Shown: piece after piece, positions 19,011-26,963 of the stretch
Layout: every line of letters begins with the position of its first letter
Position numbering within the stretch: position 1 is the first letter of the stretch
Assembly (NCBI GenBank): GCA_020630295.1
Contig: JAHDBR010000018.1
Span: 1-41,689 of the forward strand
From: Sphingomonadaceae bacterium
GTDB taxonomy: Bacteria > Pseudomonadota > Alphaproteobacteria > Sphingomonadales > Sphingomonadaceae
Length of the DNA stretch: 41,689 nt
Direction of reading: 5' to 3'
Notes under the pieces: generated by a model
Seen by the model: only the letters and a program-made list of their open reading frames with translations
Told to the model about the DNA's origin: nothing
The model's database searches: none
Made by a program: the position numbers and the translations under genes

Positions 19011-20297
19011 TTGGCTGATAAACAGGCAAAACTGGAACTTGGTGGCCAGACGCACGATTTCCCCGTGCTTTCCGGCAGTGTCGGCCCCGACGTGGTCGAT
19101 ATTCGCAAGCTGTATGGCCAAACTGGCGCGTTCACGTTTGACCCGGGCTATAAATCAACGGCCAGCTGCGAAAGCGCGCTGACATATATTGACGGCAATG
19201 AAGGCGTGTTGCTGCATCGGGGCTATCCGATCGGCCAGCTTGCCGAAAATTCCAGTTTCATGGAAGTGGCATACCTGTTGCTCAACGGCGAATTGCCAAA
19301 GCAAGACGAGCTGGATGATTTCGATAACACGATCACACGGCACACTATGCTGCACGATCAGCTGCGCCAGTTCTATCAGGGTTTCCGCCGCGACGCGCAC
19401 CCTATGGCGATTATGTGCGGCGTCGTGGGCGCATTGTCTGCATTTTATCATGACAGCACGGACATTTCTGATCCCGAGCACCGCAAAATCAGTAGTCACC
19501 GCCTGATTGCGAAAATGCCGACCATTGCGGCGTGGGCGTATAAATACGCTATCGGACAGCCTTTCCTGCAGCCAGATAACTCGCTCAGCTACACAGGTAA
19601 CTTCCTGCGTATGACTTTCGGCGTTCCCGCAGAAGAATATGAAGTCATTCCTGCGGTCGAAAAGGCGATGGACCGTATCTTCATCCTGCACGCCGATCAC
19701 GAGCAGAATGCTTCGACTTCTACCGTTCGTCTGGCCGGCTCGTCGGGTGCTAATCCGTTTGCATGTACTGCCGCCGGCATTGCCTGCCTGTGGGGTCCTG
19801 CTCACGGCGGGGCAAACGAAGCTGCGCTGAATATGCTGCGCGAAATCGGCACTCCAGACCGTATCCCGCACTATATCGAGCGCGCCAAGGACAAGAACGA
19901 TCCGTTCCGCCTGATGGGCTTTGGCCACCGCGTGTATAAAAACTATGACCCGCGGGCGACTGTCATGCAGAAAACCGTGCGCGAAGTGTTTGACGCACTG
20001 AAAGTGAACGATCCTGTATTCGAAACAGCCTTGCAGCTTGAAGAAATGGCATTGAATGATGACTATTTCCGCGAGAAGAAGCTGTTCCCGAATGTCGATT
20101 TCTATTCCGGCGTGATCCTGTCAGCAATCGGCTTCCCCACAACGATGTTCACTGCATTGTTCGCTCTTGCCCGTACCGTAGGTTGGGTCGCGCAATGGAA
20201 TGAAATGATTTCCGATCCAGCGCAGGTCATCGGCCGCCCTCGCCAGCTATATACTGGCCCGACAGAGCGCGATTATATTCCGGTCGACAAACGCTAA
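19011..20297 (+). CDS. gltA: Citrate synthase (type I)
   Basis: This 428-residue enzyme condenses acetyl-CoA and oxaloacetate at entry to the TCA cycle. Catalytic landmarks are [30 protein letters not shown] and the Asp of NVDFYSGVI. The N-terminal [14 protein letters not shown]...[11 protein letters not shown] is that of the hexameric, NADH-sensitive Gram-negative type. The start is TTG at 19011, with AAGGAG (18998-19003) 7 bases upstream; no ATG is suitably placed. It is converging with the histidine-kinase-like gene, leaving only 11 bases between stops. Confidence 0.97.
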
Positions 20298-20308
20298 ACG
20301 ATAATTCG

Positions 20309-21691
20309 TCAGCTTTTTGCTGGCGGCACATCAAGTATGAAGCGCGCCCCTTTACCGGGCGCGCTTTCTACTGTCAGGTCCCCGCCCATTGCACGCGCAA
20401 TGCGCCGCGAAATATACAGGCCAAGGCCCGAACCACCGTCGCCAGAGCGGCCAAGGCGTTCGAATTTCTTGAAGATCACTTCCTGTTGTTCAGCCGACAA
20501 TCCCGGTCCCTGATCGGACACGATTGCGCGCGCGCCAGACGCGGTTTCTGCCAACGAAATAGTTACCTTGGAACCTTCTGGCGAATAGCGGATGGCATTG
20601 CCGACCAAATTCAACAGGATCTGCAGAACGCGGCGGAATTCGGCAGTCGCATTGGCCACCTCGCTTTCCGGCGGCGCCACAAGCTCGATTGATTTTTCAG
20701 CAGCCCTCACGCCCAGAATGCCGGTTGTCCGGCGTGCTACATCGCCCAGATCAATCTGGTCGGGCGCCGTGGTGAAATGGTCTGATTCCACGACTTCCAG
20801 ATCAGCCAGATCTTCAATCAAGCCCATCAGATGCTGACCAGCTGAGGCGATATCAGCGGCATATCCGCTATACTCTTCAGATAATGGACCTGCCATTTTT
20901 GCGCGGATTGTTTCCGCATTGGCAATTATCCGAGCAATTGGCTGGCGTAATACAGGCGACAGGTCACGGCCAATCGAATGCATTGTTTCCGGCTGCGGTT
21001 CGACCGGCGCTGCATTTTTCCTGCGGTCGATGAGCGGCCGGTCCGCAATTAGAAACAAGTCAAAGCCCGCGCTGCCCGGTTCCGGTTGACCGAGCGGCAT
21101 CAGGCGCGCCTTCCACCGCCGGTCCGAACCTTCGACGGTGCAATCTGCACCATCGAGAAGCCGCCAGTGAAGCGGCTGTTCATGAGCATTACCCGGGAAG
21201 GTGACAAAGTCCGTCCACGGTGTTCCGCGCGCATGACGCATACGGGCGGTCAAATCTGCCAAGTCTCTCGAATCGCTCTCGACCGACAGGATGTTCTGTT
21301 TACTGTCTAAACGAGCATTCAGCTCTGATACTGCGCTATCGATTTCGGCCTTGCGCGCTGCTGCCGCGGATTCGCTTTCCGGCGGCAATGGGGTCGTTTG
21401 CCAATTGGCAATCCCGATATAGCAACCGCCCTCGGCTCGTTTCGCCGGCGAAACCTCTACCCATGCGGCGACAATGTTTTCGCCATCGAAAGCGGTTATA
21501 GTCTGGGCCAGCTTAAGCTGCGACTCCATCACTTTCGTAGTCAGTTCACGCAGTTCCGGGATCGCCAATACGCCAGGGATGCTTCCGCCACATTGCTGCT
21601 GCAACGAAGCCAGCGGCTCTTGCGCTTCCAGCAGCTCATTAGCACCGTCCGTGCGCCCTCTGGCGATAAAAGATCCGCTTAGTGCGTTCAT
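20309..21691 (-). CDS. Histidine-kinase-like protein with H-box His replaced by Pro
   Basis: The 460-residue soluble protein has a PAS-like N-terminal half (about 45-220, no membrane helix). A DHp-like region follows (about 237-300), then a HATPase_c domain. The ATP site is intact: N-box NLVGNAIRYS (361-370), G1 DQGPG (393-397), F-box FKKF (407-410) and G2 GSGLGL (420-425). The H-box reads SPVLRQPIARII where active kinases have SHELRTPL, so the acceptor His is Pro246 (codon CCT, complement of 20954-20956). It cannot autophosphorylate at the normal site. The frame opens at 21763, but ATG 21691 avoids overlap with the upstream gene. It is the last of four leftward genes. The family is clear; the role is unknown. 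Confidence 0.85.
   Translation of the reverse strand: MNALSGSFIARGRTDGANELLEAQEPLASLQQQCGGSIPGVLAIPELRELTTKVMESQLKLAQTITAFDGENIVAAWVEVSPAKRAEGGCYIGIANWQTTPLPPESESAAAARKAEIDSAVSELNARLDSKQNILSVESDSRDLADLTARMRHARGTPWTDFVTFPGNAHEQPLHWRLLDGADCTVEGSDRRWKARLMPLGQPEPGSAGFDLFLIADRPLIDRRKNAAPVEPQPETMHSIGRDLSPVLRQPIARIIANAETIRAKMAGPLSEEYSGYAADIASAGQHLMGLIEDLADLEVVESDHFTTAPDQIDLGDVARRTTGILGVRAAEKSIELVAPPESEVANATAEFRRVLQILLNLVGNAIRYSPEGSKVTISLAETASGARAIVSDQGPGLSAEQQEVIFKKFERLGRSGDGGSGLGLYISRRIARAMGGDLTVESAPGKGARFILDVPPAKS
20341..20369 (+). terminator. Candidate gltA terminator inside the 3' end of the kinase-like gene
   Basis: AGCGCGCCC (20341-20349) pairs perfectly with GGGCGCGCT (20357-20365) around CTTTACC, followed by TTCT. 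It lies 43 bases after the gltA stop but within the last codons of the convergent kinase-like gene (encoding the APGKGARF region). The strong GC stem argues for termination of gltA; the T-tract is short. Confidence 0.42.
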
Positions 21692-21695
21692 CAGC

Positions 21696-22658
21696 CTATC
21701 CAGCGGCCCCGGTTGCCGAAGTGGCAAGCAACGATGCGGCTGTGTCGGAACGCAGCATTTCAAATCCTTCAGGCAAAGCGATTTCCGGATGGATTAGCAA
21801 GAATTGCTCCTCAATCTCGGAAGGCTTCAGCCCGCCAACGCGCAGACCGAGAGCGAGACGGCCAACTTGCCCCTCGGTGGTTGAGAAGGCTGCAAAATTT
21901 CGGCTTTGGCCGCTGGCAACGGACAGCGCAGTCAAAAAAATTGCCGAGCCAGCATGATGTACAGACAAGGCCGCACGCACACCGCTGCCCATTCCGGTGA
22001 CCAAACGCGTCAACAATCCATGCCTGCTGGACGCTTCATCATATGAGCTCCGCAGTTCGCCTTCTGCCCTTTCGCAAATGGCGTCTCCACTATTTGGCAC
22101 CTGAGCCCGCCAAATCATGATTGCTGTGTGATACAGGTCTCCAGGCAACTCGTTAAGCGGCATATCCATCCGCCGTTGTTGCTGCATAAACCGGGCCTGC
22201 GCCGCCAGAGCAGCCATCGCCGTGCTGGCTGTTTGGTCGTTATCCGAAGCGATGAGCGCTTGAAGTAGAGGGGATAGGACCAAGTCGATGGCATTGCGTG
22301 CCTCTAACCGCTCGGCAAACTGGCGCTCGATCGTTAGTGCGTGGAAATGGGTCAAGAAATCTTCATTGCGCAATATATCAGCAGACAGAGCGTCTGACCT
22401 GGCTACGATAAAGCTCTCGACATCGCCCGCTTGTGCAGCGTTGGCTTCAGCGCGTAGCAACTGACTGGAAACGCTATCTGCCATTCCGCGAACCTGAGCG
22501 ATAATTTCGTCACTGAACAGGGAATTGGCTGGACTGCTCACCAAATGGCCCAAAATCGGGGCCAGCGTGCTAATCACGGTATCGCCATGCGACAGCTCCT
22601 CTCGAAGCACATCTTCGACCTGAATCTCAGGCGGCTGAGGTGTGGTGGTATTGTCCAT
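21696..22658 (-). CDS. Unknown 320-residue soluble protein of the pseudo-phosphorelay operon
   Basis: I do not recognise a family. The protein is predicted mostly helical, with no signal peptide or clear membrane span. An acidic N terminus (PPEIQVEDVLREELSHGD) is followed by a helical region rich in Ala/Leu/Gln (about 60-180). A more conserved-looking C-terminal part includes LLTRLVTGMGSGVRAAL, SGQSRNFAAFSTTEGQVGRLALGL and LLIHPEIALPEGFEMLR. AAGGGG precedes the ATG. It lies 4 bases upstream of the kinase-like gene and 23 bases downstream of the membrane protein gene, so it belongs to the same unit. A cytoplasmic partner of the kinase-like protein is inference. Confidence 0.82.
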   Translation of the reverse strand: MDNTTTPQPPEIQVEDVLREELSHGDTVISTLAPILGHLVSSPANSLFSDEIIAQVRGMADSVSSQLLRAEANAAQAGDVESFIVARSDALSADILRNEDFLTHFHALTIERQFAERLEARNAIDLVLSPLLQALIASDNDQTASTAMAALAAQARFMQQQRRMDMPLNELPGDLYHTAIMIWRAQVPNSGDAICERAEGELRSSYDEASSRHGLLTRLVTGMGSGVRAALSVHHAGSAIFLTALSVASGQSRNFAAFSTTEGQVGRLALGLRVGGLKPSEIEEQFLLIHPEIALPEGFEMLRSDTAASLLATSATGAAG

Positions 22659-22681
22659 TCAACCCCTTTAGCGCGACATGG

Positions 22682-23884
22682 TTAAACCACCGTTAGCCGA
22701 GAGCGATAAGATTGCACGACTAAAAACACGGACAGGGTCACTACAAGTATCTGAATAACATATAGTAATTCCCCGAGCATCGCGCCAGCAATCAGAACGA
22801 TTATCAAAATTCCACGATCACTCAGAAAATCGCGCATTGCTTCTGCGGCAAAATGGTTCTTCGGAGCGGCAGCGATCCAAATGAGCAAAAGCATGACTAT
22901 TGCTGCAAAACCGACGTGAGGTCTCACGAATTTCTCACCGGCCCATACCGAAAGGGCCACGATCAACAGATCAATCGTCAGTGCGAGTATCAGCGGCCAA
23001 ACCCTATCAAAACGCGAGGCAGTTTTCCCGTGCCTGAGCACGCGCATTAGTGTTGTCCCAATCCGAGCCGCGACGAAGGCTGCTAGCAATATACCCATAC
23101 CAACGAGCGGATAGGCCATAAACCCCGAGATTGCCGCCCCCGCCATGAGTGCGGATGCTACTGCTGCCAAAGCGAACGCGGCACGGCCTGGCTCTGAATG
23201 GCTTTGCACGAGACCTAATGCGGCACGATCGGCAAAATGACCCACAGGCGCCCATAGGGAAGTCGGGCTGACCGCTTGTTCAAGCCATTTGGCCTCGACA
23301 CTTTGCGCAATTTGCTCCGATCGGACCAGGCGCCACTCCTGATGTTCTATTTTCGCATCAGTTGTTCGCGTGCCTGCCTGCATGGCTAGCCTCAGCAGGC
23401 TGGATTGCACATCCACATCAGGCGGCAAATCGGTCATCTGTTCGACCAATCCGCCACTTACCAGCATTATTCCCGCCCAGGCCCTGTCTCTATCCAAACG
23501 CTCAAATCCGGCTTCCACCCGCCCTTGCGCAGGTAAGGTCAGCACAGTCTTGCGCGATCCGATCTCTGCGGCAGCTTTTGCGGCATCAAATGCTAGACCG
23601 TCTGTAATCACCAATAGCTCGTCGGCTGAGCGCACCAGACCAGATAAAGGCCGGATATCGCGGATAATCTGGAACCGGGCACCGGTATCCTCGACAAAAT
23701 GCTGGATTTCGAGCAATTCCGGATGAAGCGCCGAGGCGAGAAACACGATATGTTCGCAACCTAGCTCAAGCGCGAATTCAACGTGCTGGCGTGCAATTGT
23801 ATGCCCGCCGATCCGTGTCAGCCCTCGCAAGGACTGGTCGGAACCATCCAGATGTTCGGTTGTCGATAACAGCGCAATACGCAC
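22682..23884 (-). CDS. Membrane protein with degenerate nucleotidyltransferase-like N-terminal domain
   Basis: The 400-residue protein has a soluble N-terminal half resembling a GT-A nucleotidyltransferase (IPCT-like). It opens with RIALLSTTEH, then LTRIGGHTIARQHVEFALELGCEHIVFLA, and LLVITDGLAFD stands where the metal-binding Asp strand would be. The glycine-rich NTP loop and lysine (GxGxRxxP...KP) are not evident, so catalysis is doubtful. The C-terminal half has about five or six membrane helices (238-280, 297-316, 325-340, 358-392). In IPCT/DIPPS fusions a CDP-alcohol phosphatidyltransferase sits there, but its DGxxAR...G...D...D motif is absent. I chose GTG 23884 because AGGAG lies 6 bases upstream; a TTG at 23899 is the alternative. 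Confidence 0.8.
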   Translation of the reverse strand: MRIALLSTTEHLDGSDQSLRGLTRIGGHTIARQHVEFALELGCEHIVFLASALHPELLEIQHFVEDTGARFQIIRDIRPLSGLVRSADELLVITDGLAFDAAKAAAEIGSRKTVLTLPAQGRVEAGFERLDRDRAWAGIMLVSGGLVEQMTDLPPDVDVQSSLLRLAMQAGTRTTDAKIEHQEWRLVRSEQIAQSVEAKWLEQAVSPTSLWAPVGHFADRAALGLVQSHSEPGRAAFALAAVASALMAGAAISGFMAYPLVGMGILLAAFVAARIGTTLMRVLRHGKTASRFDRVWPLILALTIDLLIVALSVWAGEKFVRPHVGFAAIVMLLLIWIAAAPKNHFAAEAMRDFLSDRGILIIVLIAGAMLGELLYVIQILVVTLSVFLVVQSYRSRLTVV

Positions 23885-23952
23885 CAGACGCTCCTGCAAT
23901 TGGAGTTAACGCCTAATCTGTTCACGCCAGTCTGCCAAGCAGAGAGCGTTCG

Positions 23953-24261
23953 TTACGCTTTTGTGCTGGTAAAATCGTCGTAATATTCAGCTATTTTCCG
24001 AATAACCGTAGGCTCGCCAGGAGCGGACTCGGCAGCCAAATCAGCCAATGCCATCAGCGGCTCTGCGTGAAAACTGGCAGCAACACCCTTAAGGCGCAGC
24101 GCAGCCATGTTCCAGTTCGCATCGCAGCGGGACCGTTTAAGCAGGTCAAGTTGCCGCTGCACACTCTCAGCAAACGCTGCGCGCAGCTCGTTCATCAGCG
24201 CAGGATCATCACCTGCTGCCGCTGCAAAAGTCGCGTCGAGACTGCCGTTTTCATACAACAT
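23953..24261 (-). CDS. Hpt-like phosphotransfer domain protein with acceptor His replaced by Leu
   Basis: This 102-residue all-helical protein matches a stand-alone Hpt domain: PALMNELRAAFAESVQRQLDLL, then AALRLKGVAASFHAEPLMALADLAAESA. Hpt domains carry H-x-L-K-G; here the motif is L55-R-L-K-G, so the phosphate-accepting His is a Leu (codon CTG, complement of 24097-24099). Lys58 and Gly59, which shape the site, are kept. It is the first gene of the leftward unit leading to the kinase-like protein and is divergent from the TipN-like gene over 71 bases. No strong SD precedes the ATG. The Hpt resemblance is by motif and length and needs a profile check. Confidence 0.75.
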   Translation of the reverse strand: MLYENGSLDATFAAAAGDDPALMNELRAAFAESVQRQLDLLKRSRCDANWNMAALRLKGVAASFHAEPLMALADLAAESAPGEPTVIRKIAEYYDDFTSTKA

Positions 24262-24332: not shown

Positions 24333-26963
24333 ATGACTGGCGGATCAAACATACGGGCAATTGGCTCAGAAGACGCGCAGGATGCGCTGGAAACTCCTTC
24401 ATCGGGTGACGAAGTCACCGAGGTCATGGCCGAGGAAGAATACGCAGAAGAGTATTCGGATGAATGGGTAGAGCGTTCAGTAAGCCCCTCAAAAACAAGA
24501 TGGATTTTGCCTTCTTTCGCGGTGGTTGCGATCGCCTGCTGGACTGGCTTTTATGGGTGGGCACACCAATCAGAGCTTTTGGCTGGCGGCAGCCCGCAAC
24601 AATGGACCGCATGGGTAACCGCGTGGTCTGTACCGACATTGCTCGTTGTCGCACTTTGGATACTCGCATCACGCAATAGCCGCCGTGAAGCGATCAGATT
24701 TGGGGAAGTTGCCTCCAGCCTTTCGCACGAATCCGCCAATCTTGAGGATCGCCTAAAAACGGTGAATGGCGAATTGAGCGTGGCGCGCGACTTCATCCGG
24801 GCGCAATCGCAAGATCTTGAATCCCTTGGCCGCGTCGCTTCACAGCAAATTTCGGAACACGCGGACCGCTTGGAAGCGCTTATCCTTGAAAATGATGCGC
24901 AGCTTAAGTCCATCGCATCCGTCAGCGGTACCGCATTGGAAAACATGACGCGCCTGCGCGATGATCTGCCGGTCATTGCGAATTCCGCACGCGATACGTC
25001 CAACCAGATTGGAACTGCCGGAGAAACCGCCCACGCTCAGATTGCCGAACTGGTCAGCGGCTTCGAGCGACTCAACACATTTGGCCAGGCGAGCGAGAGC
25101 CAAGTCGATTCCATCCAGACGAAAGTAACGAGCGCCCTCGCCACCTTTGAAGCGCAAATCGACGAAATGGAGCGTCTGACCGAAACCCGTTTTGAAGCAT
25201 TGCGTGACCAGAGCGAGACGTTCCGGACCGAGCTTGATGGCCGCGAAGTCGAAGCCCTCGCCGCAATGCGCCGCCGCGCTGACGAGTTGTCGGAGCAATT
25301 TGCAACTTCGCGTGATGCGCTGGAGCAAGACGAGGAAGAAGCGCTCAAATCGATGCGATCGCGCTTTGCATCGGTCAAAGACGAAGCGGCAATCGTCAGC
25401 CAGTCCGTCCAGGATAGTGAAGAAAAATCGCTGACCATCTGGCAGGAAAGAATTGCTTCCCTGAAGCAAGAATTGGTGGCTGCAATAGGCGAGGTCGAAC
25501 GGATTGACGCCCAAGCCATGGCTTCTGCCAATAAGAAGCTAGAGGCTCTGCGGAAAGAAGCGGAGGCAGTGGACGCGAATATCGTCAATCGGGACACTGC
25601 CATTTTTGAACAGATTGATATCCGCCGGAAGAAAATTGAAGAAAACGAAGCGCGTGCGCTGGCCAACCTGACAATCAGCCTGAATTCGCTGGATAAGGAA
25701 ATAGCGTCCCGCCGCGATGCGCAACTGTCCGCTGCGGAAGACCTGACGTCACATAGCGAAACAATCGCTGCGCGCATCGAGTCCCTGCGGGATGTTATGC
25801 GTGAAGTCGCCGAATTCAGCGATACAACGCAGTCGGCGATGGCTGAGAACGCCAATTCCATTGCGGATAATCTCGCCCGCAGCCGAGAAGACATCGCTGG
25901 AACTGACGCCGCCATAGCCGAACTCACCGAAGCGAGCGTACGCTTGCTGGAGCTCATTCAAGCCAGCTCCCAGCACAGTAAAGAAGACCTGCCGGAAGCA
26001 ATCGGCGTGGCAGAGGAACGTCTGGCGGGCGCGAAGGAAAGCGCATTCGAATTGGGCACGATCATCAGCGAGGCGGACGAGAAGAGTCAGGAACTGTCAA
26101 ATTACGTCATCGCTGCGCAGCAGACTAGCAAAGACAGCATCGGGGAAATCGATAGCTTCCGCACCAGAATGGAAGAAGCTGACACAGCGACCGAGCAATC
26201 TCTGGGAACCATCCGAAGCGAGTTGGCAGCCATATCCGGGGAAAGCGAACTGTTGACGGAGAAAGCGCAAAATCAGTTGCGCGATTCCATTCGGTCACTC
26301 GAAGAGGCAGCCCGTGCGGCGCCTGACGTTCTGGAAGAGAGCATGACCAAGCGGGTATCTTCCCTCGCGCAGGCCATTGCAGACCAAACGGGCAGCATGC
26401 TGGATGCCACTCTGCGAGACACTGCAGCCGCTTCCATTGCGCAGCTGGAAGAAGCTTCCGAGAAATCGCGCAAGGCGGCACATGAAACCACTGTACAATT
26501 GCGCAACCAGCTCACCAAAGTGAACGAGCTGGCTGGAAATCTGGAAAGCCGCGTGGCGCACGCCCGCGAGAAAGCGGAAGAGCAAGTCGGCAATGATTTT
26601 GCGCGGCGAATGGCGCTAATCACGGAAAGCCTCAATTCTAATGCAATTGATATTTCCAAGGCCATGTCGAACGATGTTACAGACACGGCCTGGGCTTCAT
26701 ATTTGCGCGGAGACCGCGGCATATTCACGCGCCGTGCGGTGCAACTCCTAGACAGTACCGAAGCCCGTGACATTGCCGAAATTTATGACGAAGAACCTGA
26801 CTTCCGCGAGAATGTCAGCCGCTATATCCATGACTTCGAAGCGATGTTGCGTTCCGTATTATCGACCCGCGATGGCAATGCTTTGGGCGTTACCCTTCTG
26901 AGTTCCGATATGGGTAAATTGTATGTCGCCCTCGCCCAATCGATTGAGCGTATCCGTAACTGA
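24333..26963 (+). CDS. Two-pass membrane coiled-coil protein, TipN-like polarity factor candidate
   Basis: The 876-residue protein has an acidic cytoplasmic head (1-52, rich in Glu/Asp) and two membrane helices (about 57-76 and 97-113). An almost unbroken coiled coil of about 650 residues follows (118-775). A compact C-terminal domain (779-876) contains AWASYLRGDRGIFTRRAVQLL, RYIHDFEAMLRSVL and TLLSSDMGKLYVALAQSIERI. Length and topology match Caulobacter TipN, which marks the new cell pole and organises division and flagellar placement. The identification rests on architecture and remembered C-terminal sequence, so I give no symbol. It is monocistronic, divergent from the Hpt-like operon, and ends in the hairpin at 26960-26982. 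Confidence 0.85.
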   Translation: MTGGSNIRAIGSEDAQDALETPSSGDEVTEVMAEEEYAEEYSDEWVERSVSPSKTRWILPSFAVVAIACWTGFYGWAHQSELLAGGSPQQWTAWVTAWSVPTLLVVALWILASRNSRREAIRFGEVASSLSHESANLEDRLKTVNGELSVARDFIRAQSQDLESLGRVASQQISEHADRLEALILENDAQLKSIASVSGTALENMTRLRDDLPVIANSARDTSNQIGTAGETAHAQIAELVSGFERLNTFGQASESQVDSIQTKVTSALATFEAQIDEMERLTETRFEALRDQSETFRTELDGREVEALAAMRRRADELSEQFATSRDALEQDEEEALKSMRSRFASVKDEAAIVSQSVQDSEEKSLTIWQERIASLKQELVAAIGEVERIDAQAMASANKKLEALRKEAEAVDANIVNRDTAIFEQIDIRRKKIEENEARALANLTISLNSLDKEIASRRDAQLSAAEDLTSHSETIAARIESLRDVMREVAEFSDTTQSAMAENANSIADNLARSREDIAGTDAAIAELTEASVRLLELIQASSQHSKEDLPEAIGVAEERLAGAKESAFELGTIISEADEKSQELSNYVIAAQQTSKDSIGEIDSFRTRMEEADTATEQSLGTIRSELAAISGESELLTEKAQNQLRDSIRSLEEAARAAPDVLEESMTKRVSSLAQAIADQTGSMLDATLRDTAAASIAQLEEASEKSRKAAHETTVQLRNQLTKVNELAGNLESRVAHAREKAEEQVGNDFARRMALITESLNSNAIDISKAMSNDVTDTAWASYLRGDRGIFTRRAVQLLDSTEARDIAEIYDEEPDFRENVSRYIHDFEAMLRSVLSTRDGNALGVTLLSSDMGKLYVALAQSIERIRN

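Follow-up and report, generated by a model that had tools for sequence, protein, structure and literature searches.

How might a two-component module work once its proteins no longer carry the histidines (His) that take up phosphate? The question is raised by four minus-strand genes at positions 20309-24261 of a 41,689-nucleotide contig (JAHDBR010000018.1, assembly GCA_020630295.1) from a Sphingomonadaceae bacterium, a stretch of DNA to which, at its full length, we refer as the window. In order, the genes encode a histidine phosphotransfer (Hpt)-like protein, a membrane protein, a helical protein and a histidine-kinase-like protein, with gaps of 53, 23 and 4 bases. The original prediction, made from the sequence alone, held that the kinase-like and Hpt-like proteins had lost their phosphoacceptors in parallel and retained their folds and the ATP site. 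Our data support this parallel loss and reveal it to be old. We consider it reasonably probable (about 0.6) that a former phosphorelay has been turned into a non-phosphorylating module that works by shape and docking.

The kinase-like protein (20309..21691, minus strand; 460 aa) comprises, according to Pfam and a structural model, two PAS-like regions, a dimerization and histidine phosphotransfer (DHp) domain and a catalytic, ATP-binding (CA) domain, all without the phosphoacceptor His. Numbered from the ATG at 21691, the H-box reads S245-P246-V247-L248-R249-Q250-P251. Pro246 (codon CCT, 20956-20954) falls on the H-box His position, as read from the sequence and from an alignment of 128 rows. 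Pfam HATPase_c was matched with 92.9 bits (cut-off 26.4) and HisKA with 27.5 bits, narrowly over its cut-off of 26.9. NCBIfam naming of the kinases was unspecific, and phmmer with the DHp alone returned weak matches only (best E 0.039). The AlphaFold2 model (pLDDT 91.8; for the two models of this study, 95 and 96 aligned family members served as inputs) places helices H240-263 and H272-302 in the DHp (aa 240-302; 20786..20974), followed by the CA domain (aa 311-457; 20321..20761), the latter assigned from Pfam and alignment A6. Compared with known structures, the DHp-CA part of the model gave DivL (4q20) and HK853 tied at the top with Z about 22, the 4q20 alignment spanning 221 residues, and we conclude from the model that a DHp-CA fold is present. 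The N-terminal region (aa 9-217; 21041..21667) is modeled as two alpha/beta folds that we call PAS-like for their order of strands and helices, a label given without a Pfam PAS match and to a region never searched alone. In A6, a thinned alignment of 95 chosen rows, residues N361, N365, D393, G395, G420, G422 and G424 of the N, G1 and G2 boxes are identical in 95/95 rows; the Glu following the H-box His position is retained in 1/95 and gone in 94/95, the window having Pro246-Val247. Sequence, Pfam and these invariant residues agree on the intact ATP-binding domain that had been predicted.

The Hpt-like protein (23953..24261, minus strand; 102 aa) reads AALRLKG where the Hpt consensus is AHxLKG. 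Leu55, encoded by CTG at 24099-24097, replaces the phospho-His, as confirmed by alignment with canonical Hpt rows. Alone, the window protein stays under the Pfam Hpt cut-off (13.6 versus 24.6 bits, E 0.082), and Pfam Hpt at E ≤ 1 matches 10 of 22 family members (best 7.7e-4). A profile of the family matches Hpt proteins of other Alphaproteobacteria that have His in the Leu55 column, and four Hpt genes that occupy the corresponding position in genomes further removed pass the Pfam cut-off. The predicted structure (pLDDT 91.6) retrieved Hpt proteins in rows 1-17 of a structural comparison, the best being 7c1i with a root mean square deviation of 2.4 over 99 residues and Z 12.2; that Z lies in the tool's warning range, reachable by unrelated helical bundles, and we do not rest the Hpt identity on it. 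Plain Foldseek E-values were weak (best 0.44). A coincidental helical bundle is ruled out by the His-bearing relatives in the same gene context. As judged from these relatives and the model, the protein has the four-helix Hpt fold, as anticipated, and is homologous to His-bearing Hpt proteins.

To ask whether the losses are fixed, we collected orthologues from 60 relatives (31 regions read), from 80 records and from the regions beside gltA, the convergent neighbour of the kinase-like gene, in 60 of 157 genomes of the order (46 from the window's family, 14 from others). The 80 records are the best 80 of at least 293 confirmed loci, identified with peptide patterns lying outside residue 55, and were ordered by their similarity to the Hpt-like protein of the window. 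Kinase matches were present in 137 loci; removal of four by length (L058, L114, L163 and L165) and of six identical copies and addition of the window gave 128 rows, or 125 distinct orthologues once L059-L061 were set aside, with L165 (Pro), L335 (Gln; probably the same region as L135) and L338 (Thr) standing outside this count. Hpt-like matches occurred in 117 loci and, after removal of two by length (L127 and L165) and six copies, yielded 110 rows with the window row included. His is missing from 123/125 kinase orthologues, which carry mostly Pro (97), then Arg (8), Glu (4) and Gly (3), and more rarely Lys, Gln, Asp, Ser or His (2 each) and Asn, Ala or Thr (1 each). It is likewise missing from 109/110 Hpt-like rows, in which Met (57) is the commonest residue at position 55, ahead of Leu (29), Gln (12), Trp (6) and Ala (2), with His, Glu, Thr and Gly seen once each. 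The 100 loci with both genes include no kinase with His and one Hpt-like protein with it (L036). Because the absence of His is fixed across the family while the ATP-site residues are invariant, Pro246 and Leu55 are not due to chance.

Selection was assessed on the congener pair L034/L035, with the window rows of the DUF2336-like gene (the helical protein, see below) left out. Ratios of protein-changing to silent substitution rates (dN/dS), which are rough as silent sites are near saturation (dS 0.9-2.3), came to 0.024 in the kinase gene, 0.016 in the Hpt-like gene, 0.038 in the DUF2336-like gene and 0.127 in the membrane gene, compared to 0.030 for a divergent coiled-coil gene next to the unit and 0.010 for gltA. 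Protein-changing differences per site amounted to 0.047 in the kinase and 0.035 in the Hpt-like gene, with silent differences of 0.70 and 0.71; across these two and the DUF2336-like gene, the protein-changing range of 0.035-0.056 is far under the silent one of 0.65-0.71. The family-wide loss of His and this constraint rule out recent decay in one strain. The original prediction had regarded His-bearing orthologues as a sign of such decay. They do exist, both in other families and in a few divergent genomes within that of the window, and their distribution speaks for an ancient conversion instead.

Relatives with intact motifs allowed us to place this conversion. In a DHp-CA tree of 74 rows, one branch (94/94) sets the 43 family rows, a chosen subset, apart; adjoining them are canonical SHELRTPLNAIIGFAEAM kinases taken one from each of 20 other genomes, a join that reaches only 83/83. 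L057, with an intact H-box (MSHELRTP), splits off first (100/93 for the rest); at its locus, membrane and DUF2336 genes lie on one side of the kinase and gltA on the other. The L056 kinase (Asp; long branch) splits off second. The canonical kinases of other Sphingomonadales families are the nearest in the tree and share the DUF2336 neighbour with the window, but have an intact SHELRTP box and lie away from gltA in 14/14 other-family loci read. A DUF2336 gene adjoins 19/19 canonical kinases checked (L058-L061, L270-L281, L284, L286 and L287); none was detected in the 3-kb stretches of five other fetched kinases (L282, L283, L285, L288 and L289). Within the window's family, the divergent genome G082 encodes an intact kinase following a DUF2336 gene (L360), as well as a His-bearing Hpt protein. 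Tree placement and the DUF2336 neighbours of the canonical kinases together indicate that the window kinase-like protein descends from a DUF2336-linked histidine kinase.

A similar contrast was seen for the Hpt-like protein. Canonical Hpt proteins (PF01627) encoded beside the coiled-coil gene align with its core and have the same divergent neighbour, but carry the phospho-His in the Leu55 column. In other alphaproteobacterial families, a His-bearing Hpt gene is divergent to the coiled-coil gene, adjoining or one gene off, in 5/20 loci, of which L302-L304 were picked with both matches known, the others contributing 2/17 (L320 and L321). In Sphingomonadales, where outside the window's family a receiver and a second Hpt are usually next, a recognizable Hpt lies beside the coiled-coil gene or the receiver in 13 of 23 loci read, all 13 with His, and the second Hpt has His in 22/22 loci where it is present. 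The receiver itself, which adjoins Hpt in G082, was detected at E ≤ 1e-20 in 20/24 genomes outside the window's family and in 1/36 inside it (G014). With the Asp column checked against DivK and two other receivers, 19 of 22 loci (L340-L342, L344 and L371-L388) have Asn in place of the phospho-Asp (SNWxMxPVDG), and three (L384, L386 and L387) keep Asp. This preponderance of Asn suggests that the phosphorelay had been partly altered before the window's family arose. We infer that the receiver Asp changed to Asn first and that receiver loss, both His losses and gathering of the operon followed within the window's family.

The two middle genes, listed as unknown in the original prediction, can be identified from their relatives. 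The 320-aa helical protein (21696..22658, minus strand) has no match to PF10098 (DUF2336), nor is one listed for 20 near relatives; proteins at the same place in L056 (E 4e-63), L057, L049, L055, L053 and L050 pass the Pfam DUF2336 model. Its position and these intermediates point to a DUF2336 protein too diverged to match Pfam. The membrane protein (22682..23899, minus strand; 405 aa) shows six hydrophobic segments at aa 240-395 by hydropathy, and its orthologues match PF01066 (L056, E 3.1e-10) and, below the cut-off, PF12804 (L168, E 4e-4). Its DG..DG..AR catalytic motif is present in one of 137 orthologues (L056) and gone in 136/137, the window included. By these matches, the protein derives from a nucleotide (NTP)-transferase part and a CDP-alcohol phosphatidyltransferase part and has lost its catalytic activity motif, making it a third former enzyme of the unit in this state.

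We can thus outline a history and a possible mode of action. The starting point would have been the arrangement still seen in other families of the order, which have a DUF2336-linked kinase with an intact H-box and a His-bearing Hpt divergent to the coiled-coil gene, mostly accompanied by a receiver and another Hpt. The window's family has Hpt, degenerate membrane enzyme, diverged DUF2336 protein and kinase in one operon, nearly always lacks the receiver and has both phosphoacceptor His replaced. Chemistry may have been lost in steps, receiver Asp to Asn first, then the receiver, the Hpt His and the kinase His, with folds and ATP site kept. The kinase-like dimer would bind ATP and, via its PAS-like regions, a signal, and change shape; the Hpt-like protein could serve as a four-helix docking piece for the kinase-like protein or for a receiver domain, with no phosphate passed; and the membrane and coiled-coil proteins might localize the assembly to the membrane, perhaps to a pole. 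The nearest working model is DivL, which docks to DivK and so senses its state. This fuller account, in which stepwise loss yielded an ATP-gated docking module of pseudo-Hpt and pseudokinase that is linked to a coiled-coil gene resembling a polar scaffold and occurs throughout much of a large family, we favor by a slight balance of the evidence.

Several observations weigh against this interpretation. In a congener (L036:6000-6299), the Hpt-like protein has His at residue 55 (AAHRLKG) beside a kinase with Pro. The kinase of L055 (2398-3813) has His in place in a ruined H-box (IDHSFKPS); because of the ruined box and its nested position among His-less relatives, this His was probably regained or is accidental. 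The unit is also incomplete in many genomes. When 46 loci of the window's family were read next to gltA, 34 had the kinase, and stretches of about 8 kb on that side contain the Hpt-like gene in 16/46. Four of the 12 genomes without a gltA-side kinase (G108, G133, G136 and G138) have the Hpt-like gene elsewhere, adjoined in G136 and G138 by a clear His-less kinase (L335 Gln, L338 Thr) and in G108 and G133 by weak kinase matches only. The membrane gene is kept without the kinase in L167 and L168, and the kinase without the Hpt-like gene in L053, L055, L056 and L057 (genome-wide for G019 and G024), so the kinase can function by itself. G018 has its kinase and DUF2336 genes (L050) on a different contig from the membrane, Hpt-like and coiled-coil genes (L339). 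The genes, predicted to be undamaged, are so in the window and most relatives, but only the end of the kinase gene remains at L163:7604-7729, the Hpt-like frame is cut short at L165:4706-4885 (same genus; kinase whole with Pro), and that of L127 is also short. Members of the module can be lost, and the module is not universal in the window's family. Contact between the kinase-like and Hpt-like proteins is a guess from operon structure. Finally, DivL binds ATP weakly (PMC4211667), so conservation of the ATP site does not have to imply that ATP is used.

The comparison with DivL, offered as a precedent in the original prediction, is apt as an analogy, but the two proteins are not the same. DivL of Caulobacter crescentus resembles the window kinase in being a HisKA-type pseudokinase with N-terminal PAS domains, a replaced phosphoacceptor (Tyr550) and the fold kept, and it is without kinase or phosphatase activity, working by specific binding of DivK~P (PMC4211667). 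DivL forms a separate lineage with its own neighbours, and the window family has Pro (or R, E, G, K, N and others) at the position in question, not Tyr. The window genome encodes a separate DivL of the Tyr type (L210, G000 C68; SYEFRTP), whose best PDB match is 4q20; this separate protein and the tree, which keeps the two apart, indicate that the window kinase-like protein is not DivL. With a pseudokinase such as DivL, a single protein of a functioning phosphorelay has been altered; in the present module, several proteins are without phosphoacceptors. As living relatives preserve the stages before and after, a role for two-component folds without phosphotransfer becomes testable by comparing orthologues.

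The kinase-like protein might instead be, in effect, a second DivL that tunes CckA-ChpT-CtrA through phosphorylation-dependent binding of DivK or another receiver, the Hpt-like protein being unrelated to the task. The genome would offer the partners: a DivK (L254, G000 C19; best PDB match DivK 1m5t, E 6e-36), the DivL mentioned above and a kinase (L212) that we take to be CckA. No SHELRTPLNAIIGF-type kinase was seen among its 19 HATPase matches. Ancestor-like kinases score with DivJ and PdhS models, among many others, and DivL stands first, tied with HK853, in the structural list. The setting fits as well, since a 2010 comparison reports CckA-ChpT-CtrA kept in Sphingomonadales and DivJ-PleC-DivK degenerate or lost (PMC2877005), and whatever the locus does may bear on cell-cycle control in this order. 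We nevertheless regard a second DivL as unlikely, given that both 4q20 and the DivL-like L210, each a long branch, group apart from the window kinase family in the tree. Independently of this question, the clear DivK and Tyr-type DivL of the window genome are of note, as the same survey describes DivK as absent or anomalous in Sphingomonadales (PMC2877005).

A further alternative is that the CA domain still phosphorylates something: either another residue, such as a different His of the DHp, or another protein, such as a canonical kinase paired with it in a mixed dimer. In its favor, the ATP-site residues are identical throughout A6, H287 of the DHp is nearly invariant in the kinase family and H65 is common in the Hpt-like proteins. 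However, canonical relatives likewise have His in the H287 column (GRHLM in L057, GRHLL in L344), which marks this residue as old; H65 can be replaced by Q, G, S, N or M; and the Glu after the His position is gone from nearly all rows. Both residues are thus disfavored as replacement acceptors, and we rate continued phosphorylation as improbable. That the genes are drifting remnants of a phosphorelay without its receiver, for which one could cite the near-complete loss of the receiver from the window's family, the twelve different residues at the kinase His position, the fast evolution of the membrane gene and the missing or broken members in L163, L165, L127, L167 and L168, is highly improbable in view of protein-changing differences far under silent ones in the kinase and Hpt-like genes, the lack of internal stops among the kinase matches listed, a gene order retained across many genera and the prevalence of Pro in the kinase rows.

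Returning to a docking module converted from a phosphorelay, we did not find it described in the literature searched, which covered DUF2336, TipN, degenerate histidine kinases, pseudo-HPt and DivK and the cell cycle in Erythrobacter, in sources mostly other than subscription journals. For pseudo-HPt, the papers listed were plant papers and one general motif search. The plant pseudo-HPt AHP6 is an Hpt without His that inhibits signalling; unlike the window Hpt-like protein, it is eukaryotic and not in an operon with a pseudokinase.

The unit is flanked by two plus-strand genes. gltA (19011..20297), encoding citrate synthase, serves as the synteny anchor and is not thought to be a module member; its stop lies 11 bases from that of the kinase. 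The divergent coiled-coil gene (24333..26963), linked by conserved synteny, starts 71 bases off the Hpt-like gene on the opposite strand and encodes 876 aa with an N-terminal hydrophobic segment. We presume this protein to be TipN-like by its length, hydrophobic segment and coiled coil. Promoter and terminator scans of the locus gave nothing above shuffles. The C-terminal region of the coiled-coil protein is present in 106/289 alphaproteobacterial genomes. DUF2336 proteins vary in number, with five to six matches each in G041, G045, G057 and G014 and none at E 0.001 in the window genome; both G014 and G045 have a further DUF2336 gene near the coiled-coil gene.

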